From Candidatus Aenigmatarchaeota archaeon (lineage in GTDB: Archaea; Aenigmatarchaeota; Aenigmatarchaeia; CG10238-14; SCSR01), in assembly GCA_016187415.1 (NCBI GenBank), contig JACPJT010000001.1, forward strand, positions 33,965 through 97,964: a DNA stretch of 64,000 nucleotides, in the 5' to 3' direction. The notes beneath the pieces are model-generated. The model was not told the DNA's origin and made no database searches. It saw only the letters and a list, made by a program, of their open reading frames with translations. This document shows, piece by piece, positions 3,050 through 45,978 of this stretch. The stretch's first letter is position 1; the number at the start of each line of letters is the position of its first letter. The translations under genes were made by a program, and so were the position numbers.

Positions 3050-3168
3050 AGTTTCACTTAGATTAATGAAATTTAATGTCTTTTAAGCTTTAAGAAATTT
3101 TGTTAGAGATAAAATATTGCGTTTAAGAAAAGATAAGCCTAAAAACATAACATAATCTAAAGGAATAT

Positions 3169-11816: not shown

Positions 11817-13256
11817 ATGGCATTGAAGCTTTTCAACACCTTGACCAGAAAAAAAGAAACTTTCAAGCCCCTCAAAGACAGGCAGGTCAAACTGTATACT
11901 TGCGGTCCGACTGTTTACGATTATGCGCACATCGGCAATATGCGAGCTTATGTCTGGGAAGATTTGTTAAGACGAGTTCTCGAATTCAACAAGTTCAAGG
12001 TGACTCATGTGATGAACATAACAGACGTCGGACATCTGACTTCAGATCAGGATACAGGCGAAGACAAGATGGAAGTAGGCGCCAAAAGAGAACATAAGAG
12101 TGCGTGGGAAATCGCGGAATTTTACACAAAGGAATTCATCAAGGACATTGAAAAATTGCACATCTTAAAGCCGCATATTGCCCCGAAAGCAACAGACCAT
12201 ATACAGGAACAGATAGAACTAATTAAAATTTTGGAAAAGAAAGGTCACACTTACATAATTTCCGACGGTGTTTATTTTGACACTTCGAAATTGAAGGATT
12301 ACGGCAAGCTCGCAAGACTAAATGTAGAAGGGCTGAAAGCTGGCGCAAGAGTTGAGATGGCCGAGGGAAAAAGAAATCCTACAGATTTTGCCCTTTGGAA
12401 ATTCTCACCAAAGGATCAGCACAGGCAGATGGAATGGGGGTCGCCTTGGGGCACCGGATTTCCGGGATGGCACATAGAATGCAGCGCAATGAGCATGAAA
12501 TATCTCGGCACTACTTTCGACATTCATACAGGCGGCGTTGATCACATACCGGTTCATCATACAAACGAGATTGCACAATCGGAAGCGGCAACCGGGAAAA
12601 AATTTGTAAATTATTGGCTGCACTGCAATCACTTGATTGTTGACGGAGAGAAGATGTCCAAGTCTCTAGGAAATTTCTACAGACTTAAAGACATAACAGA
12701 CAGAAATTACAAGCCTATACATTTGAGATACTTTTACACCAATTCCAATTATAGAAGCCAGTTGAATTTCACATTCAAAGGACTAGACTCGGCTAAGAAA
12801 ACAGTAGAAGGATTGTTTGATTTTGTCAGGAAGCTGAAGGATATTCAAGGGAACAAGGACAATCCAAAAGTCTCCGCGTTAATTAAAAAATTCAGAAAAC
12901 AATTTCTTGTCGGAATAGACGACGATCTTAACTTCCCTAAAGCTCTGGCTTCCATGTTCGATTTTATCAGAACCGCTAACAAACTGATCGCTCAAAATAA
13001 AATTAGCAGGAAAAACGCAGAGACTATAATAAAGTTGATGATCGAGGTGGATAACATATTAGGTTTGGGTTTCATCGATTTGATTGAAGAGAAAAGGGAG
13101 ATGCCCAAAGAAGTTCTTGATTTGATTAGAAAAAGAGAATCTGCTAGAAAGTTAGGCGACTTTGCAACAGCAGACGATATAAGGAATGAAATCCGGGACA
13201 GATTCAACATTGTCATAGAAGATACCAAAGACGGTCTCAAGTGGAGATTTGCTTAA
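11817..13256 (+). CDS. cysS: Cysteinyl-tRNA synthetase
   Basis: [23 protein letters not shown]...[10 protein letters not shown]...KMSKSLGNF. Confidence 0.98.
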
Positions 13257-35538: not shown

Positions 35539-35664
35539 GCTCCCTTCGTCTAGCCCGGTCAACCCGTGCCGAAAGGACTACAGACTTTCGATTGACTTCG
35601 AAAGATTTGACATCTGAGATGAAAGAAGAACTCTGTGGACTGGGGTTCAAATCCCCAAGGGAGC
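35539..35664 (+). tRNA. tRNA-Glu (TTC) with two inferred introns: ~12 nt in D-loop (~35562-35573) and 40 nt at 37/38 (~35591-35630)
   Basis: Acceptor GCTCCCT/AGGGAGC, T-arm TGGGGTTCAAATCCCCA, ACAGA-CTTTCG...-TCTGT anticodon arm. Confidence 0.85.
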
Positions 35665-35675
35665 ATACGACCTTT
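35662..35675. repeat. Left target-site duplication AGCATACGACCTTT (14 bp)
   Basis: Identical to 45088-45101, immediately outside both TIRs. Confidence 0.93.
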
Positions 35676-35726
35676 GGGATATATATAGAGCCCGAGAAAG
35701 TTCCGCTCCCAGAAAGTTCATAAAAA
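35676..35726 (+). repeat. Casposon left terminal inverted repeat
   Basis: GGGATATATATAGAGCCCGAGAAAGTTCCGCTCCCAGAAAGTTCATAAAAA. Confidence 0.96.
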
Positions 35727-35732
35727 ATCCAT

Positions 35733-36839
35733 CTAGAGTACATTGGGGAAACGTGATTTTAGATAGTTTTTGACTGTCCATAAAAATGGTATTAAGAAAA
35801 TAAAATCAAAAAGGGTAAAAGTTAATGGTCTTGAAGGCGGTAAAAGAGAAACTGTAAATTCTGCAATAACGGTTGGTGTTAAAGCTATTATATACATGTC
35901 GTAAAGAGTTTTCCGAAAACCATATTCACGATAGTGTTCAAGAGAACCATATTTTCCGATTACACCCAGTATTAGAATAATTGCTAAGAAGAAAAGAAAC
36001 TCTGAAGGGAATAGCGTTCGGTGAAAGTTTATTTTCACACTTTCAGTTAAATTGCCCCCCGCATCAAATTTGCAGTTTTTAATTGGTACTACAATACCAT
36101 TAGGCAGTGTTTGGTATAGAGAAAAGGAAATTCCATAAAACTCATTATTTCGAAGACCAACGTCGGCAGTTATCAATTGATGGTCAAATTGAATTGGTGT
36201 AGGTTTTGCAGTAAAGACAAATCCCTTGTAATGTGAATAACCAGATGGGGTTTGACATAGAATTTCACCACTTGGAGTCTTTGCTATAGCTTCAACATTT
36301 TGTTTTATATCAGTTTCGGGAAAGATATAATGCCCGATTATTATGATGTTATTTGTTATGCTTTTTGATTCATCGAATGGGTAATAAGCGTCGAATGGAT
36401 AAAGATATTTAGAACGTAGTTCTCCAACATTCTGTACAGAAAACTTTACAGTGACATTTGAATCATTTTCAGATAACTTTATTTCATGTGAGAATATATA
36501 CAACTGTTTATCGTTTTTCTTTAAATCAGAGACGTCAGGTCTTTCCTCAAGATATGTTTGATTACCATTTTCGATAATTTTAAGTTGCCAAACACGAAAA
36601 ATAGTTTCACTTGTGTAATTAATTCTGATTGTTGCATTTTTACCTGTAATTTGCAATTCTTTTGAACTAGAGTCAAAATTCACATTTGTGTTTTCTAATA
36701 TCCTAACAACATTGTCTGAGTTGTCTAAATGTTCATATGTTACATCAAATTTATTTCGATTAAATTGAACTAAATTTAATAATGCGTATAGTAAAATTAC
36801 CAAACCAATTGCTATAAGAATTATTTTATTCCATTTCAT
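35733..36839 (-). CDS. Casposon cargo membrane protein
   Basis: N-terminal TM, extracellular domain, C-terminal TMs. Confidence 0.6.
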   Translation of the reverse strand: MKWNKIILIAIGLVILLYALLNLVQFNRNKFDVTYEHLDNSDNVVRILENTNVNFDSSSKELQITGKNATIRINYTSETIFRVWQLKIIENGNQTYLEERPDVSDLKKNDKQLYIFSHEIKLSENDSNVTVKFSVQNVGELRSKYLYPFDAYYPFDESKSITNNIIIIGHYIFPETDIKQNVEAIAKTPSGEILCQTPSGYSHYKGFVFTAKPTPIQFDHQLITADVGLRNNEFYGISFSLYQTLPNGIVVPIKNCKFDAGGNLTESVKINFHRTLFPSEFLFFLAIILILGVIGKYGSLEHYREYGFRKTLYDMYIIALTPTVIAEFTVSLLPPSRPLTFTLFDFIFLIPFLWTVKNYLKSRFPNVL

Positions 36840-36908
36840 AATGAAACAGTTAGTGAACTATTTATTTATCCTCCACCATATTTCTATCATTCTTGAGGTG
36901 ATAGAAAC

Positions 36909-38055
36909 GTGGTAGATATGGACTTAAATAATAATTTGAATATCTCAAATAAATTCCTCTTTCTTGACGGCTATGGGATAGATGTTAGAGTAGATGATGG
37001 TAAATTGGTCGTAAAAGACGGCAATGGTTCAAAGCAAACATTCTTTCCTAAGAGATTCCCTTTCAATAACGTGATTGTTTATGGAACGAGAGGTTCGATA
37101 AGCTTCGAACGGCAAACTCTTGACCAGTATACTTCCACAAGAAGCCAAGCAAACTGAGTTGAAATTCAGACAATATGAAACATATAAGTCCGAAAGGCGA
37201 GTCGAGATAGCTAGAAAGTTCATTGAAGCAAAGATTCAGAGGACGAAAGATGTTCTTGATTGGTTGAATCAAAGATATCCAGAGATTGACACTAATTTCA
37301 AATCCGACCTATCAAAAGCACAAACTATCCCAGAAATAATGAATGTTGAGGGTAGAGTTGCTGAATTCTATTGGAGACAATTGCATAAACTTCTGAGTAA
37401 AAAGTTTGAATTCGAGAATAGAAAGATTGGTAAGACTGAAAGACCTATGGGTGCTGTAGACCCGATAAATTGTCTGCTTAATTATGGATACTCTTTGCTT
37501 GAGAGTGAATGCAGAAGAGCAATAAATTCTGTCGGACTGGATACACATGTTGGATTTCTACATGAGGTAAATTTAGGCAAAGAACCTTTGGTGTACGACT
37601 TACAAGAGCCTTTCAGATGGTTGATTGACTTGGCTGTAATCAACGCTTTAGAGAATAAGATTTTCGACAAGAAGGATTTCATAAGGACTGAGAATTTCAA
37701 TCTCAAGCTGAAAAACAGTGGTGCTAAGAAGCTGGTTAAGGAAGTTGAAAACCAGTTGAACAAGACTGCCTTTTATCAAAGCATGGAATACAGATGGTTC
37801 AACATCATTTTATTCAAGGCAAGGGAATTAGGGCAACATCTGCTAGGCAAGAGGAAAATTATTGATTTTGGTGTGACAGTAGCAAATCTGGAAAGAATGG
37901 ATAACCATGAATTAAGAGAGAAAATTCTGGAGTTATCGAATTCTAAGGCTAGAAAATTAGGAATATGTAAAAGTGAGTTGTGGTATTTGAAGCGAAAAGC
38001 AAACTCTGAGAAACCATTTAAGATTTATAATAGAATTAAAGAAAGGTTAATATGA
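36909..38055 (+). pseudogene. cas1: Cas1 casposase, coding sequence split across two frames (36909-37157 and 37120-38055) with apparent loss of ~17 codons
   Basis: N-part FLFLDGYGIDVRVDDGKLVVKDG...NNVIVYGTRGSISFE; C-part GKLLTSILPQEAKQTELK, VEGRVAEFYW, DPINCLLNYGYSLLESECRRAINSVGLDTHVGFLHE, LVYDLQEPFRWLID. Confidence 0.92.
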
Positions 38056-38058
38056 TTA

Positions 38059-38502
38059 TTACTCTGGTTGTGTAAAGAAAGTATCATGAATTATTTTATC
38101 TAGTTCTTTTACAATTTCTACTCCATTTAAGCAAATTTGCTTTATTTCATCATCAGAAGGCTCTGCACTTTCGTAGATATTTATATGACCTAATTTATCA
38201 TTTCTGTCAGAATTAAATCTGAGAATTTCTTCTTCAAAATCTTTTTTAATTATCCCTAATATGAATAAATCTTTCGCAAGTGGAGCAAAATATTTTTTAT
38301 TTACGATATTCCATTTTTCTGGGTGGTTTCCTAATGGCTGGTCGTTTTCGTCCTTATTGAATTTGTATCTCAAAATAATTTTCATTTGGTGATGAATTCC
38401 AGCGTGTATGGTGGCAAAAGCTTTCCATATATTTTGCTTCAACAAATTATCAAAATAATCTAGAGATAATTTGTTTCCATTGTAAAGCAATCTATCTTCC
38501 AT
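38059..38502 (-). CDS. HEPN-like domain protein
   Basis: RNDKLGH (RxxxxxH) motif in an all-alpha small protein. Confidence 0.5.
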   Translation of the reverse strand: MEDRLLYNGNKLSLDYFDNLLKQNIWKAFATIHAGIHHQMKIILRYKFNKDENDQPLGNHPEKWNIVNKKYFAPLAKDLFILGIIKKDFEEEILRFNSDRNDKLGHINIYESAEPSDDEIKQICLNGVEIVKELDKIIHDTFFTQPE

Positions 38503-38539
38503 TATTTTAATTAGTCTAGGTATTTAAAAATTAGAATGT

Positions 38540-38743
38540 TCATTTCTTCTTCCAAAAGAAACCAGCCTTAGTTTCTATCCTTTCTACCTTACCTTCGTTC
38601 TTCAATTCCATAAGAACCCTGTATAGCATGTGCCAATTAATGCTTTTGCCACTCTTTTCTTCGACCTCTTTCAGGACTTGGTTCGTACTCTTTATATTAT
38701 TCAAAGAAAGTATACCCAAAACCGTTTCTCTATACTTACTCAT
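38540..38743 (-). CDS. Small HTH protein
   Basis: NQVLKEVEEKSGKSINWHMLYRVLMELKNEGKVERIETKAGFFWKKK. Confidence 0.6.
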   Translation of the reverse strand: MSKYRETVLGILSLNNIKSTNQVLKEVEEKSGKSINWHMLYRVLMELKNEGKVERIETKAGFFWKKK

Positions 38744-38829
38744 AAGAGAGTTTTACAAAATATTGTTACTAAGCATATATCCAAAGGTTTGATACAAGAG
38801 TTTTAAAGGTAAAATGTAATAGTAAATTA

Positions 38830-39459
38830 ATGAAAAGCAAGCCTAAGAGCATATTGAAATGGTTTGGCATAATAGTTGGAATTTTCTTTCTTGCTATGAT
38901 AATATGGGGTATTCTGGGTTACTTGTCATATTCCTACATTTTAACAAACTCTACAACATCAGCCTCTCCAGATGTACAAAAATTCAACGAACTTAGCAGT
39001 AGAAGTCGGAAGGAAGTAAATCAATTTTCCAATGAAATAAAAGACTATTCAGTTAGCCTAAAAGCTGGAGATACCATTGCATCTAGAAGTAAGGTCACCA
39101 ACGCTAGAAACATATTGATTGATTTGAAGAATGATTACCAATTCGTATGCGATTTCCAAGAGAGTAACAAGCAATTATTTAGCAGTGACATAGAGATACT
39201 AATTCAAAAGTGCAAAGGCTTTTTGGATGTTTTCAACTTATGCTATCCAAAATACTTGGATTCGTTGTATAGTCTAACTTACTTAGTAGAACAAGGAAAC
39301 CAAGCAAAAACTCAGCAAGGTACACAGAATTACCAAACGTCATGTGCTTCTTGGCTAAACGACTGGAATATTGTAAGGGGTAGCTGTAGTACATTGTCGG
39401 AAAAGTATTATTTGGGTCTAGAATTTGCAGATTTGTCCGAAATGTGCAAATTAAACTAG
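38830..39459 (+). CDS. Membrane-anchored hypothetical protein
   Basis: N-terminal TM segment. Confidence 0.55.
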   Translation: MKSKPKSILKWFGIIVGIFFLAMIIWGILGYLSYSYILTNSTTSASPDVQKFNELSSRSRKEVNQFSNEIKDYSVSLKAGDTIASRSKVTNARNILIDLKNDYQFVCDFQESNKQLFSSDIEILIQKCKGFLDVFNLCYPKYLDSLYSLTYLVEQGNQAKTQQGTQNYQTSCASWLNDWNIVRGSCSTLSEKYYLGLEFADLSEMCKLN

Positions 39460-39506
39460 GATTCTTCTTCAATAGCTCACACTTTAATGTAAACTCTAGG
39501 ATATGC

Positions 39507-39776
39507 ATGGCTTGTCTAGTAAAATGTCCGATATGTCAGAAAACTAAGAAGCTTGATAGCAGAACCAAGCATTACTTTAGATGTGATTGGTGTCATATAG
39601 CTATCGAAGTAAAGCCTAACATATTGGGAGAATCGTTTGTATTGCCTAGAAAATGCAAGGATTGTGGTAGAATTAAGGGTAAAGATTGTGATTGTATTGA
39701 AATTGTAGACGGTGAACCAGAAAAATTGATATTAGTCAATGATGAGTCAGAAAAGTTAATCATTGTTGACAATTAA
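39507..39776 (+). CDS. Zinc-ribbon protein
   Basis: CPICQKTKKL...YFRCDWCHIAIEV...RKCKDCGRIKGKDCDC. Confidence 0.6.
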   Translation: MACLVKCPICQKTKKLDSRTKHYFRCDWCHIAIEVKPNILGESFVLPRKCKDCGRIKGKDCDCIEIVDGEPEKLILVNDESEKLIIVDN

Positions 39777-40333
39777 AATGGATTATATAGTTCTCCTATC
39801 TTCTTTTCTAGGAAGTAAACCGATGTCCTTCTCTTACTTCCATCATATAACTCATCGAAGCTATCAATAAACAATTTAGAAGCTTGTTTTTTACTAAGAT
39901 TTTTAATTCTAACGCTTAGTGACTTGCATCTTTCAATAAAGGATTTCTCTAGAGGTTTAGGTATTTCAGCATCTTTTATTTTCGATATATTATTTTTTGT
40001 CAATTCTGCAAAAAACTTCTTTTCTAATTCCGAACCTTTTATAACAATTTCTGCAACCTTATTTTTATTTGTGAAGAATAACTTTTTTACATGGGGCTTT
40101 ACACCGCTACTTTCATGCATCATCAAACCTTCAGTTTCAATAATATTTAGATAAGTTGTAATATTTTTCGCATAACCAGCATCAATTTCACCTTTTAATA
40201 ATCTGGTAATCTCTTGAGGGTGTATTGCTTTATCCCAACATAAATAAATCAACATGAGATACAGATTTCTGATTTTGAAATTACCCATATTGATAAGTAG
40301 ATGTGTAAATATAAAACTCGATTTACAGCACAA
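39773..40333 (-). CDS. Winged-helix regulator-like protein
   Basis: HPQEITRLLKGEIDAGYAKNITTYLNIIETEGLM. Confidence 0.55.
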   Translation of the reverse strand: MCCKSSFIFTHLLINMGNFKIRNLYLMLIYLCWDKAIHPQEITRLLKGEIDAGYAKNITTYLNIIETEGLMMHESSGVKPHVKKLFFTNKNKVAEIVIKGSELEKKFFAELTKNNISKIKDAEIPKPLEKSFIERCKSLSVRIKNLSKKQASKLFIDSFDELYDGSKRRTSVYFLEKKIGELYNPF

Positions 40334-40366
40334 ACAATAATTTAATTCGAAATTACTAAATTAAAC

Positions 40367-40660
40367 ATGAGAAAACGAGAAGCTGATTTCGTCAAATCAG
40401 CCCCCAGAGTTAAATTAGTTTATATGGCTATTGAAAAAGAGCCAGAATTTGATTTCTTAAATGAAGTATTTGATAGAATGATATTAGATAGAGAGATTTC
40501 TTCTTACCGTAAATCAATAATACCATTTCCACTAATCTTCAAAAGGCTTGGAGTAGTCTACCATTTTTCTAAAAAGACAAGTTTGAAGTTCTTGAAAGTT
40601 TTAGAAAAACGGGGTTACATCAAACTAGTCAACTTTCATGGAATTAAGGTGACTAGATAA
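40367..40660 (+). CDS. Winged-helix-like protein
   Basis: FKRLGVVYHFSKKTSLKFLKVLEKRGYIKLVNFHGIKVTR. Confidence 0.5.
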   Translation: MRKREADFVKSAPRVKLVYMAIEKEPEFDFLNEVFDRMILDREISSYRKSIIPFPLIFKRLGVVYHFSKKTSLKFLKVLEKRGYIKLVNFHGIKVTR

Positions 40661-41160
40661 TGAAAGTTCTTAGTATAGCTAAAACAGCTTGGAGTAAGCT
40701 GAATCCAGAGAAGCGATTTACAAGGATGTTATCACTAGATGCCCTAAATCTGATGCGACATAATAAGCTTTCATTAGAGAAAGCGTCTAAGTATGTGGGA
40801 TTGGACAAAGAAACTGTACAACAACATATAGCTTCTGCAATTTACAAAAGGCACAATAGGTGGATACCTAAAAGAATGGACATTATACAACGAAGAATGA
40901 CTGTCTACAAAAACGGAAAATCAACATCAATTGTTGTAAGAGATTCCAAACAAGCCTCTAGGATAGGAGAATATTTCAATGATGTGAAGAAGGCTTTAAC
41001 AACTGGTGATGACTCATTCCTCAGAAAATACAATAGAAGAAAAATAATCGGTGTAAGAGGAGGAAAGCATAAGCTTGAGACACGACTTGAGAAAATCAGA
41101 GAAATAGAAGAGGCTAAAGAAGACGGTGAGTTTCAAGTTCTCTACGACACGGTGAGATGA
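40660..41160 (+). CDS. HTH-containing hypothetical protein
   Basis: LSLEKASKYVGLDKETVQQHIASAIYKRHNRW. Confidence 0.5.
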   Translation: MKVLSIAKTAWSKLNPEKRFTRMLSLDALNLMRHNKLSLEKASKYVGLDKETVQQHIASAIYKRHNRWIPKRMDIIQRRMTVYKNGKSTSIVVRDSKQASRIGEYFNDVKKALTTGDDSFLRKYNRRKIIGVRGGKHKLETRLEKIREIEEAKEDGEFQVLYDTVR

Positions 41161-41511
41161 ATGAATAGAGAACATTATGAAAGAGAGATAATCAATAAAA
41201 TAAAGCAGAGAAAGTTCAAGGAAGCTTTGAGAGACACTGCAAAAGCAAACATATGCATACTCAAGTGTGAATGCTCTTCTATAGAAGAGCATCATTTACT
41301 CAGCAGAATAAATTCAGATGATACAGTTGGATTGTGCAAACCACCACATAGTTTTGTAACCAATGCACAAAATGAACTACCATCTCAGATAAGAAAAAAC
41401 AAGTCGTCTAAAAAGAGAGGTCTCCATTTCTTCCTTGTAAGCATTGGTGCATTGCTGATTCTGATTGGCGAAAGAATGATAGATTTTGGATTGAGTGACT
41501 TGGATGATTGA
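41161..41511 (+). CDS. HNH-like nuclease with C-terminal TM
   Basis: CILKCECSSIEEHHLLSRINSDDTVGLCKPPHSFVTNAQN. Confidence 0.6.
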   Translation: MNREHYEREIINKIKQRKFKEALRDTAKANICILKCECSSIEEHHLLSRINSDDTVGLCKPPHSFVTNAQNELPSQIRKNKSSKKRGLHFFLVSIGALLILIGERMIDFGLSDLDD

Positions 41512-44008
41512 AAAGAAGGAAATTGCGTTAAGAACGTATGTGAAACCAAAAAGAATAAAAGAAAGAATTCAAAATAAAGAAGTTAACACATCTAGAATTC
41601 TAGTTTTTGATACAGAGACTACGGATGACATGTATCAAAATCTGAAGTTTGGTTCATTTGCCATAATCGAAAACTCCAATGAGCAATACAAGGGAATATT
41701 TTATAACCCAGAAGATGTCACAGAAGACGAAAAGAAATTATTAGAAAAACACTGTAAATTAAAACAAATTCAGTTGTATACAAAGGAAGATTTTATAGAA
41801 AATGTCTTCATAAAGGAAGTTTTTTATACGCAAACTTTATGTATTGGTTTCAACTTACCATTTGATATACCAAGATTGTCTATTGACTGGTCTGAAGCTA
41901 GGGGGAAGAGATTTGAAAATGGGTTTTCCTTTATTTTAAGCAAAAATCCTAGCATTCCTAGATTGAAAATAAAACATATTGACAGCACAATGTCATTCAT
42001 CGAATTCGGCTCTGCTTTTGACTACAATGGGAGAAATTACAATTTCAGAGGCAATTTCCTAGATTTGAAAACCTTGATGTTCGCACTAACTAATGAAAAG
42101 TATTCACTAAAAACAGCTTGTAAATTGTTCAAAACTAAGCACCAAAAATCAGAAGCAAAAACTCATGGTAAAATAACTCCTGAATATATTGAATACAATT
42201 TGAACGACTTGGAATGCACCAAAGAGCTTTATTACAAGGCAAAAGAAGAGTACGATAAATTTTGTATCAACCTGCCAGTTACAAAGGCGTATTCTCCAGC
42301 ATCTATTGGAAAGACATGTCTCGACATGTTGGACATCAAATCATTCGAGAAAAAGAATCCAAACTTTCCAGATGCAATAAAAGGAAACATCATGGCTTCT
42401 TACTATGGTGGTAGAAGCGATGTAATGTTTAGACGAAACCCCATGCAAATTGTTCTTTTAGATTTCACGAGCATGTACCCTACCGTATGCATATTGCAAA
42501 ATCTTTGGAAATTCATAATAGCTGAGAAGATAGAGACAATAGATAATACAGAAAATGTGAGGAAGCTATTGGAGAGAATTAAAGAACCAGCAGATTTGCT
42601 AGACAATGAACTCTGGAAGACTTTCAATTGCATAGTTTTTGTCAAGTCGAATGAAGATTTACTACCAGTTAGGTCAAGATTTAACTATAATGAAGAGGCT
42701 TACAACATAGGAATAGAGTATCTGACAAATGAAAATGCCATACCATATGCCCTTTCAGATGTTATAGCATCCAAGATACTAAATAATAAAACACCTGAGA
42801 TAATGAAGGCTATTAGATTTATCCCAGTTGGCATACAGAATGGCTTGAAGAAGGTAAATATTCTGGGCGTAGAATCAGACCCTGAAAAACAAGATTTCTT
42901 TGAGGCACTCATAGAAGAAAGGCAGAAGATTAAAAACGAGATGAAAAGGTTGGGTGAAGCCTCGCCCGAACACATGCTTTTAGACAGCAAACAAAAGGCA
43001 CTGAAGACGATTGCCAATGCGATAAGTTATGGCATTTACATAGAAGACAATCCAGAAGAAAACTATGAAATAATTGATGCATATGGAATTGAAAAGTTTG
43101 AAGCCGATGCTAGCAAGATTGACAACTTTGGGTATTTTTTCAATCCTATAATGGCTGTTTTGATAACATCTGCATCAAGATTGCTATTGGCTATAGCTGA
43201 GAGTATCCTAGCTAAGCATGGAAAATTCTTCGCATTTTGCGACACCGACAGCATGGCTGTACCACCAGAGTGTGCAAAAGAGTTGCAAGACTATTTCCAA
43301 AAACTAAATCCTTACAAAATTGATGTGGAAATTCTAAAGCAAGAAACTCCAGTTGTTTGGTGTTATTGCATAAGTGCAAAGAGATATGTTTTGTATAAAA
43401 AGGATGACAAAATAGAGATTTTCAAGAAAGATAAAAAATACAGATTTTCATTGCACGGGTTGGGTCACATAGAGAACCCCTTTGGAAATGACAGAGGCGA
43501 TGATATACCATGGCAAATAGAATGGTGGACAGATATACTGAATTTGGAATATGGGATTGTAGATGAGAATGAGATAACAACCAAATATAGAAACAAATAC
43601 GAGATTGCACAGCTTAGTATAACATCAACAAATATAATGAAAAGATTTGAGGTCTTAAATAAAGACAAGAAAATCAAACCATCCAATTTCTTTCTAGTCG
43701 GGATGGGTGCAAAGAAAATTGATGGTATATTAGTCAAGCCCATGGCACCATATTCAAACAATCCGCAATCTATTGTCTATCAAAACTTTGTGGATTACAA
43801 CAGTGGAAAGATATTAAATGACATCTCATATTGGAAGACACTTGATAGAACTTTCTTCAGATATCTAGACCATCCTGAATCAAAGTTTGTCGGTAATAGA
43901 GGAAAGCTAGAAAGAAGACACATAGAAGTAAGCGATATAATTTTCATAGGAAAGGAGGCAAATGACGTAAAGACTACTGGGAGATGCGATAAAATATGGA
44001 ATAAATGA
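41495..44008 (+). CDS. polB: Family B DNA polymerase (casposon PolB)
   Basis: Exo DTETT; motif A DFTSMYPTV; motif B KALKTIANAISYGIY; motif C FCDTDSM; KRYVLY. Confidence 0.93.
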   Translation: MTWMIEKKEIALRTYVKPKRIKERIQNKEVNTSRILVFDTETTDDMYQNLKFGSFAIIENSNEQYKGIFYNPEDVTEDEKKLLEKHCKLKQIQLYTKEDFIENVFIKEVFYTQTLCIGFNLPFDIPRLSIDWSEARGKRFENGFSFILSKNPSIPRLKIKHIDSTMSFIEFGSAFDYNGRNYNFRGNFLDLKTLMFALTNEKYSLKTACKLFKTKHQKSEAKTHGKITPEYIEYNLNDLECTKELYYKAKEEYDKFCINLPVTKAYSPASIGKTCLDMLDIKSFEKKNPNFPDAIKGNIMASYYGGRSDVMFRRNPMQIVLLDFTSMYPTVCILQNLWKFIIAEKIETIDNTENVRKLLERIKEPADLLDNELWKTFNCIVFVKSNEDLLPVRSRFNYNEEAYNIGIEYLTNENAIPYALSDVIASKILNNKTPEIMKAIRFIPVGIQNGLKKVNILGVESDPEKQDFFEALIEERQKIKNEMKRLGEASPEHMLLDSKQKALKTIANAISYGIYIEDNPEENYEIIDAYGIEKFEADASKIDNFGYFFNPIMAVLITSASRLLLAIAESILAKHGKFFAFCDTDSMAVPPECAKELQDYFQKLNPYKIDVEILKQETPVVWCYCISAKRYVLYKKDDKIEIFKKDKKYRFSLHGLGHIENPFGNDRGDDIPWQIEWWTDILNLEYGIVDENEITTKYRNKYEIAQLSITSTNIMKRFEVLNKDKKIKPSNFFLVGMGAKKIDGILVKPMAPYSNNPQSIVYQNFVDYNSGKILNDISYWKTLDRTFFRYLDHPESKFVGNRGKLERRHIEVSDIIFIGKEANDVKTTGRCDKIWNK

Positions 44009-44073
44009 GAGGACGTTAAGAAAAATCAAGAAGAAGATAAGAGGAAATAAAAAACTGGTTCTTAGAAGAAAAA

Positions 44074-44787
44074 TTAAAATGATTTTATGGAAAATAACTT
44101 TAAGAAAAATGATATGATTGTCGTTATACCACTTATTATACCTACAACAACACCAAATTTAGTTAATATAGTCCAAAGTCCTTTAAATGATATTTCTTTA
44201 TTTTCTACATCTGATTTTGGGAGTGCAGACCCGAGTAGTGTAACCACAATTTGAAGAAATAGAAGTGCATATGCTACATATTGAGCCCATATCAAGTTAA
44301 AGGATAACCCCAGTGAGATAAACATCAGTGCAAAGAATAAAAAATATATAGAAAATCTTAACCCAGATATATTATTTTCTACAAGATTTGATACTGTTTC
44401 AAGAAAAGGCATGTAAAGAACCATCGAAGCCGTGGACAATAACGCCATGAAAGGGAAAATAATTAAGTATGTCAACACTATTCTGCCAGATACAAAATAA
44501 TTAGTTGATATGATACTCAATATGAGAATAACAAGTAATCCATTCAGACCAATTAACTTGTCAGTAACTTTCTGACTTTTAGATAAATCTGTTATTTTAG
44601 AAAATCCCATCTTAGCCAAATCTGCAATACTAGTACCATCTTGAGATTTAGAATTTTTATTCACCACATTATTATTTCCAGTAATCCCAATTACATTTTT
44701 TGAATCTTTGATTGTAGTTTTGTATATTGTAGTTCGTTGCCTAGATTCAGACTTTTTCTTAGATTCAGCGACCATTTTATGCCCCAC
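44074..44787 (-). CDS. Membrane protein, ~4-5 TM
   Basis: Hydrophobic segments. Confidence 0.6.
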   Translation of the reverse strand: MGHKMVAESKKKSESRQRTTIYKTTIKDSKNVIGITGNNNVVNKNSKSQDGTSIADLAKMGFSKITDLSKSQKVTDKLIGLNGLLVILILSIISTNYFVSGRIVLTYLIIFPFMALLSTASMVLYMPFLETVSNLVENNISGLRFSIYFLFFALMFISLGLSFNLIWAQYVAYALLFLQIVVTLLGSALPKSDVENKEISFKGLWTILTKFGVVVGIISGITTIISFFLKLFSIKSF

Positions 44788-44791
44788 TAAA

Positions 44792-44989
44792 TTAGGTCTG
44801 AATTTTTGATACTATGTTATTACCACCAAGATTAATACTTTGCTCGATTACCAGAGGAGCTTTCTTATCAGTTAAAATATCCCAAGCATGTTGATGGTCG
44901 AAATCTATCTTTTCGCAGTAATCTCGAATTTCCTTCCAAGTTTTCGGTTCATTTTCAATCAATTCTAGGACTTTGATAATCTTATCCAT
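44792..44989 (-). CDS. Small HTH-like protein
   Basis: KVLELIENEPKTWKEIRDYCEKIDFDHQHAWDILT. Confidence 0.5.
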   Translation of the reverse strand: MDKIIKVLELIENEPKTWKEIRDYCEKIDFDHQHAWDILTDKKAPLVIEQSINLGGNNIVSKIQT

Positions 44990-45036
44990 ATTTTCGATAT
45001 TACAGGTGAAAACTTATATAATTGAAGCAGATAGGA

Positions 45037-45087
45037 TTTTTATGAACTTTCTGGGAGCGGAACTTTCTCGGGCTCTATATATATCCC
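45037..45087 (-). repeat. Casposon right terminal inverted repeat
   Basis: Exact reverse complement of 35676-35726. Confidence 0.96.
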
Positions 45088-45101
45088 AGCATACGACCTT
45101 T
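45088..45101. repeat. Right target-site duplication AGCATACGACCTTT (14 bp)
   Basis: Identical to 35662-35675. Confidence 0.93.
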
Positions 45102-45169
45102 GTGTTATAGGTATCGCCTCAAATCTTTTACGCTTTATAAGGCGTGAAAATACATAAAAAATCATTGAA

Positions 45170-45739
45170 CTAAGATGATTCTATATAAATTTCAAAATAT
45201 GTTTTTATTTCCTTTTCTTCGTCATTACATAATGAACATCTTATAATTACTGGTACTCGTTGGGTACCATATGGCACATCATCAATAGTACAATTAGTTG
45301 ATAAGAGATGACATGGCGAATAGTATATTTTCAAATTAGTAGTATTTCCTGTTTCAGGCGGGATATTATCCCAATATGCTCCTTGTTCAATACCAGCACT
45401 TGCATTTCTTGTAATGTAAAATCTAAATTTTGAATCTGATGGGGAAATCAATAAAACTTGTCCAGTTGATGTTCTCCCGTCATTTCTTATAGAAAAGTGT
45501 ATTAAAGGATAACCTGCCTCGATATCATTGGCTAAAAAATATTGTGTACCATTATTGTACGTTTCCATCCGATACTTGAGAGTGGGTTGTATATGTTGTT
45601 GAAATTGACGACTATCAGAATATGTCCAAGTAGATAATATTAAACTAAGTATAGATATAGCCAATCCAAATACTGCTATTATTGTAGTTAAAGGAGTTTT
45701 TTCAAACCCGTTTTTCATATTTATTGACATGTTTTGCAC
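45170..45739 (-). CDS. Membrane-anchored hypothetical protein
   Basis: N-terminal TM followed by soluble domain. Confidence 0.55.
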   Translation of the reverse strand: MQNMSINMKNGFEKTPLTTIIAVFGLAISILSLILSTWTYSDSRQFQQHIQPTLKYRMETYNNGTQYFLANDIEAGYPLIHFSIRNDGRTSTGQVLLISPSDSKFRFYITRNASAGIEQGAYWDNIPPETGNTTNLKIYYSPCHLLSTNCTIDDVPYGTQRVPVIIRCSLCNDEEKEIKTYFEIYIESS

Positions 45740-45851
45740 ATATGATTCTTGAATCTATTTATTTATCCTCTACCATACTTCTATTAAAGATTCTTATATG
45801 CCATCTCGGTATACAGTCAAATATTCTTATAGAAACTTCAAAATATTATAA

Positions 45852-45926
45852 ATGGAGGTTGAAAATATGTGTACAACTTGTGCAGCTCATGCCGGTAAAA
45901 AGTCAGGCAAAAAGAAACGGATGTGA
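45852..45926 (+). CDS. Candidate small peptide MEVENMCTTCAAHAGKKSGKKKRM
   Basis: 24-aa ORF with CxxC and Lys-rich tail, TATA-like sequence upstream. Confidence 0.35.
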   Translation: MEVENMCTTCAAHAGKKSGKKKRM

Positions 45927-45978
45927 TTCCTTGCTTCCTTTTACAAGGATTTAAAATTCGCGGTTTATACTTTGATTA

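Follow-up and report, generated by a model that had tools for sequence, protein, structure and literature searches.

The 64,000-nucleotide stretch analyzed here (the window) comes from a Candidatus Aenigmatarchaeota archaeon (GenBank assembly GCA_016187415.1, contig JACPJT010000001.1, positions 33,965 to 97,964 of the forward strand). At positions 35676 to 45087 it carries an element with a Cas1-type gene, which an earlier reading of the letters alone (the sequence-only reading) had described as a complete-ended casposon in a DPANN-like host; the host is indeed an aenigmatarchaeon. The features that bear on its nature are listed below in window coordinates.

35539 to 35665, plus strand: intron-containing tRNA-Glu(UUC) gene, the target, left intact by the insertion (direct reading; alignment with the intact orthologue in same-genus genome G003)
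35662 to 35675, no strand: left target-site duplication (TSD) AGCATACGACCTTT, comprising the final 4 nt of the tRNA and 10 nt more
35676 to 35726, no strand: left terminal inverted repeat (TIR), 51 bp, perfect
36909 to 37157, plus strand: casposase N-terminal domain fragment, an 82-amino-acid (aa) open reading frame (ORF) in which residues 2 to 60 match at 36951 to 37109, frame-shifted from the remainder
37108 to 38055, plus strand: casposase C-terminal part (residues 78 to 394), catalytic domain and helix-turn-helix (HTH), with 53 bp missing upstream
41495 to 44008, plus strand: family-B DNA polymerase (PolB) with motifs DTET, DFTSMYP and CDTDS, C-terminal HTH lost (Pfam DNA_pol_B, 7.1e-10)
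43974 to 44084, plus strand: out-of-frame relic of the PolB C-terminal HTH (LLGDAIKYGINERTLRKIKKKIRG...)
45037 to 45087, no strand: right TIR, 51 bp, perfect
45088 to 45101, no strand: right TSD
45102 to 45118, plus strand: GTGTTATAGGTATCGCC, probably the end of an older casposon; it lines up in register with the TIRs (GGGTTATAGGTATC) of casposon remnants L072 and L073
45170 to 45739, minus strand: 189-aa ORF in a stretch of 31% guanine plus cytosine (GC), probable cargo of the older element

The two arms form a perfect inverted repeat over 51 bp, which the repeat search stretched to 60 nt at 95%. When a 25-mer of the TIR was searched with up to 3 mismatches, no third place was found in the window (0 expected in shuffles), and the host genome (735 kb, 10 contigs) holds no TIR copies besides the casposon's own two. 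The 14-mer AGCATACGACCTTT abuts both arms exactly and occurs nowhere else in the window. Both the perfect TIRs and the exact direct repeat outside them, as claimed from the letters, were thus verified, and so was the position of the TSD at a tRNA 3' end. The tRNA-Glu gene aligned with its intact G003 orthologue with a score of 206 (shuffled maximum, 74). ARAGORN did not call this tRNA; compared with G003, it appears to contain an extra stretch of about 12 nt in the D-arm region, besides the anticodon-loop intron. The GC content is 33% within the casposon and 39 to 40% in the 10-kb flanks.

Between the arms, the frame at 37120 to 38055 (311 aa), already proposed as a Cas1 homolog, matched Pfam Cas_Cas1 at 5.9e-53. 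The best solved match of this part is the Methanosarcina mazei casposase (6OPM, 305 bits, E=5.2e-90), compared with 89 bits for the best CRISPR Cas1, and the alignment runs through the HTH to chain residue 410, showing that the HTH fused to the Cas1 C terminus is present; a sister casposase matched the solved casposase structure at E=1.5e-124. The Cas1 relationship therefore stands, but the gene is broken: the 311-aa frame covers just its C-terminal part, and its N-terminal domain lies in another frame. Intact casposase relatives have 395 to 398 residues; their residues 2 to 60 map to 36951 to 37109 in one frame and residues 78 to 394 to 37108 to 38049 in another, while residues 61 to 77 (AIRWLIKHNVQVSILDW in M. 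mazei numbering) are missing owing to a 53-bp deletion with a frameshift between the two parts. In the published M. mazei structure (PMC6977970), helix alpha-1 (residues 59 to 67) contributes to the tetramer interface, and the deletion takes out most of this helix; the catalytic E, H, and E are kept in the C-terminal part. The uninterrupted casposase gene expected of an autonomous casposon is thus lacking. Since cas1 is broken, we infer that the casposase is probably inactive and that the casposon is probably unable to move by its own enzyme. The two ORFs do overlap, with start codons near the junction, which might allow the casposase to work split or re-initiated (the 82-aa N-terminal ORF plus the C-terminal ORF from about 37120) or via ribosomal frameshifting; however, residues 61 to 77, including most of helix alpha-1, would be absent even after a perfect frameshift, and we regard such rescue as very improbable.

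The polymerase gene carries a second lesion. Its earlier assignment to family B was confirmed by the Pfam match and by CDTDS, a motif known from a casposon polymerase (PMC7544198), and the protein is 40 to 50% identical to PolBs in Aenigmatarchaeota, Methanolobus, Nitrosarchaeum, and Nanoarchaeota casposon loci. These relatives have a C-terminal HTH resembling that of Cas1, intact in loci L069 and L070, whereas in the window a 77-bp deletion with a frameshift separates it from the polymerase frame, leaving an out-of-frame relic in place of what is a family 2 trait. Because the homologous DNA persists, we interpret the missing HTH as a loss. Therefore, "complete-ended" holds for the DNA ends, but not for the working element that it implied. 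The ends, the homologies, and both frame breaks are read directly in the assembly. One could still suppose a fully active autonomous casposon in which the breaks in cas1 and polB arose only during sequencing or assembly, given that the TIRs and TSD are perfect, that the catalytic residues are conserved, and that the host is known only from a 10-contig assembly. However, sequencing indels are typically small, whereas the gaps here are separate, measure 53 and 77 bp, and both shift the frame; moreover, the phylum has many decayed casposons (genomes G088, G081, and G038, with short fragments in G084 and G089), making the artefact explanation improbable.

Family 2, as defined by Krupovic et al. 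in 2014 (PMC4046053), is characterized by a casposase with HTH, a PolB with HTH, an HNH protein, and two HTH proteins. In a maximum-likelihood tree, casposases (Cas1-solo group 2) formed a clade (100/99) separate from CRISPR Cas1, and the window casposase fell inside it. Its nearest relatives belong to casposons in metagenome-assembled genomes (MAGs) of Ca. Aenigmatarchaeota from the same class (56 to 61% identity), followed by Methanoculleus and Methanolobus (48 to 49%); these relatives were recovered from genome contigs with an alignment query, while a single-protein query found nothing. No casposon relatives were found among IMG/VR viral contigs, so that set gives no hint of a free viral form. 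Together, the TIRs, TSD, casposase-clade Cas1, and PolB bear out the casposon identity, and judged by its sequence the element is a genuine casposon of family 2, a rank that the sequence-only reading had not given. A CRISPR adaptation module, or another integrated cas1-bearing element, might be considered, as the same genome has a cas1-cas2-cas4-like cluster elsewhere (L051). Yet the element contains neither cas2, cas4, nor a repeat array, and it has PolB, TIRs, a TSD, and a casposase-clade Cas1 fused to an HTH; a CRISPR adaptation module is ruled out by the TIR/TSD, PolB, and phylogeny, and the broader alternative is scarcely credible.

Compared with the family 2 casposons of M. mazei and Methanolobus (PMC4046053; 6OPM, PMC6977970), the window casposon shares the casposase with C-terminal HTH, PolB, HNH, the conserved HTH protein, TIRs, and a 14-bp TSD made of the last 4 nt of a tRNA gene plus 10 nt. 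It differs in host phylum, in TIR sequence, in a TSD starting AGCA instead of CGCA, in its broken cas1 and lost PolB HTH, and in a mostly unrelated cargo. Closer to it is the intact casposon of G041 (MAG NC_groundwater_1268, L070/L076), a genome of the same class, with TIRs at 2223 to 2280 and 12093 to 12150, the 14-bp TSD ATAAATTTATTGGG, a Cas1 of 396 aa, and a PolB of 859 aa. The two share the TIR start GGGATATA, the tRNA 3' target and its geometry, Cas1 and PolB (56 and 48% identical, respectively), and the 209-aa and HTH/HNH proteins, whereas the G041 copy has an intact casposase, a PolB with HTH, a tRNA-Pro target, and TIRs of 83% identity in contrast to the perfect ones of the window.

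In M. mazei, the 14-bp TSD combines the final 4 bp of a tRNA-Leu gene with 10 bp more (PMC6977970). The window TSD reads AGCA plus TACGACCTTT and thus shows the tRNA 3' target feature of family 2. We compared five aenigmatarchaeal elements (the window, L070 in G041, and the left ends L071 to L073 in G088, G081, and G038), and in all five the element end starts with GGG exactly 10 nt past the discriminator base of the tRNA, which is tRNA-Glu in the window, tRNA-Pro in three cases, and tRNA-Ala in the other. This is as expected from the 4-bp plus 10-bp rule, and five tRNA-end insertions with one shared geometry support the published casposase target rule outside methanogens.

The survey of about 160 Aenigmatarchaeota genomes revealed full-length casposase-like genes in G063, G049, and G041. 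The G088 copy is truncated, those of G038 and G081 retain just the C-terminal HTH, and other short fragments occur in G084, G089, and at another site in G081. The G081 element (L072, 7316 to 9480) spans 2.2 kb and has inverted ends and an HTH-only cas1. This element and L073 of G038 (from about 7150) follow tRNA-Pro and tRNA-Ala, and their cas1 genes have been cut back at almost the same residue, leaving the C-terminal HTH. We found no casposon report from Aenigmatarchaeota in the openly accessible literature searched, and as far as that literature shows, the phylum is a new casposon host; the survey therefore adds casposons, both intact and decayed, to this DPANN phylum. As a separate observation, a casposase in an Acidobacteria MAG (JADFGZ010000172.1, L098) groups with Nitrosopumilus/Nitrosarchaeum elements, probably through mis-binning or transfer.

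The casposon remnants in G081 and G038 also shed light on the DNA beyond the right TSD. They begin with GGGTTATAGGTATC at the same register past their tRNAs, and 13 of 14 nt agree with GTGTTATAGGTATCGCC at 45102 to 45118. The 14-mer KGTTATAGGTATCT occurred five times in 158 genomes of the phylum: two occurrences are the G081 and G038 remnants, and the three away from tRNAs are probably due to chance. The stretch 45102 to 45950 has a GC content of 31%, below the 39 to 40% of the flanks, and a 30-nt sequence is found at 36858 to 36887 and 45755 to 45784 (93% identical), in these two places only within the window and in none of the shuffles. This sequence lies upstream of two minus-strand ORFs that are unrelated to each other: 35733 to 36839, within the casposon, and 45170 to 45739, outside it. 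The match in register with casposon remnant ends suggests that the window copy inserted next to a casposon already present at this site, which we consider likely, though with moderate confidence because the right end, a third TSD, and core genes of the older element were not found. Ordinary host DNA resembling a casposon end by chance would explain why the match is only 13 of 14 nt, why neither a right end nor cas1 of an older element appears, and why three of the five exact 14-mer matches lie away from tRNAs; but the match sits at the exact register predicted past the TSD, and the adjoining low-GC DNA has an ORF sharing the 30-nt upstream sequence with a cargo gene, so coincidence seems unlikely. 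An older neighbour would also have precedents: the casposons of Methanococcoides burtonii and M. psychrophilus R15 (PMC4046053) likewise lie in adjacent copies, one of them deteriorating, whereas the older element of the window is recognisable only as one terminus plus a little probable cargo.

An empty site in sister genomes had been proposed as the decisive check. The same-genus genomes G001 to G005 have no Cas1, and their tRNA-Glu-like loci, including the clear G003 orthologue, continue with other sequence after the tRNA and carry no element. However, no exact empty allele was among them. The downstream sequence of the congeners is unalignable and the right-hand neighbour gene (encoding a 221-aa protein) is absent from the genus, meaning that the G003-type locus is not the exact pre-insertion allele; with an older neighbour, the expected allele would read tRNA-Glu, a single AGCATACGACCTTT, and then GTGTTATAGGTATC.

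According to the anatomy and the published M. mazei mechanism, its Cas1-type casposase would have joined the 3' ends of the element to both strands at the tRNA-Glu 3' end, at staggered points 14 bp apart, and gap repair would have produced the TSD and left the tRNA intact. Landing between the tRNA and the older casposon end would give the order tRNA, TSD, new element, TSD, old end, and after insertion two short deletions, 53 bp in cas1 and 77 bp in polB, would have broken the casposon. Several points weigh against this account. The exact empty site was not found within the genus by a reconstructed-flank DNA search, by synteny of the upstream peptidase, or through the downstream 221-aa protein; the assembly has 10 contigs, and the 53-bp loss could in principle be a mis-assembly; in the tree, the grouping of the window with aenigmatarchaeal and Methanosarcinales (methanogen family 2) elements is weakly supported (83/65); and the second conserved HTH protein of family 2 (with HEAT repeats) was not identified in the casposon. 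Taken together, we consider it highly probable that a family 2 casposon was inserted at the tRNA-Glu 3' end beside an older casposon end and was then broken by two deletions.

With perfect ends and a casposase that is presumably dead, the window casposon is probably a recently stranded copy, which may possibly still be movable in trans. These two properties, together with an apparent older end at the same site, make it a natural case for asking about trans mobilisation and stacking, and stacking at one site is the behaviour proposed as the forerunner of CRISPR arrays. A bolder and rather improbable idea is that the defective or miniature aenigmatarchaeal casposons (the window copy plus the HTH-only ones in G081 and G038, which sit at two different tRNA genes) constitute a non-autonomous class that another casposase mobilises in trans, with new copies stacking next to the tRNA as spacers do at a CRISPR leader and the HTH-only fragment acting as an end-binding regulator.

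The remaining genes inside the casposon are as follows.

35733 to 36839, minus strand: cargo ORF of 368 aa with hydrophobic segments at either end; no family match
38059 to 38502, minus strand: cargo ORF, 147 aa, no family match
38540 to 38743, minus strand: winged-helix-like protein, 67 aa, 72% identical to one in the G049 casposon
38830 to 39459, plus strand: membrane-anchored protein, 209 aa, with 48% identity to a protein of the intact G041 casposon
39507 to 39776, plus strand: small cysteine-rich (zinc-ribbon-like) protein, with an L070 counterpart by eye only
39773 to 40333, minus strand: 186-aa ORF, winged-helix-like by eye
40367 to 40660, plus strand: 97-aa ORF, no family match
40660 to 41160, plus strand: conserved casposon HTH protein, 166 aa, with homologues in aenigmatarchaeal, Methanolobus, and Thaumarchaeota casposon loci
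41161 to 41511, plus strand: HNH-type protein, 116 aa, second zinc Cys pair not conserved
44074 to 44787, minus strand: cargo membrane ORF, 237 aa
44792 to 44989, minus strand: 65-aa ORF, winged-helix-like by eye

The HNH-like and HTH genes read from the letters have homologues in other casposons: the HNH-type protein, which has no Pfam HNH match, has HNH homologues in the loci L069 and L070 and in those of Methanolobus, and the 40660 to 41160 protein is the one located of the conserved family 2 HTH pair. Searches of the cargo against Pfam, PADLOC, PHROGs, and NCBIfam gave no confident function.

The host has two further Cas1 loci. The L051 cluster of cas1-cas2-cas4 type (G000:C3:171-2023) is at a contig start, and any CRISPR array would fall past the contig end. 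The other (L052, G000:C4:2227-4592), left of the window on the same contig, has a stand-alone Cas1 of 327 aa that overlaps a DEDD-type exonuclease and lies just past the 3' end of a 23S rRNA gene, with no adjacent cas2 and no repeat array within 20 kb. Between the rRNA gene and Cas1 is an orphan gene of 236 aa with 24-nt direct repeats on either side (2227 to 2250 and 3050 to 3073), and a 17-mer similar to this repeat lies beside apparent rRNA DNA on contig C7; possibly, Cas1 has made a second insertion here, this one at an rRNA end. A LAGLIDADG homing endonuclease ORF (L052, 1128 to 1685) also lies inside the 23S rRNA gene, in a region that is probably an intron.

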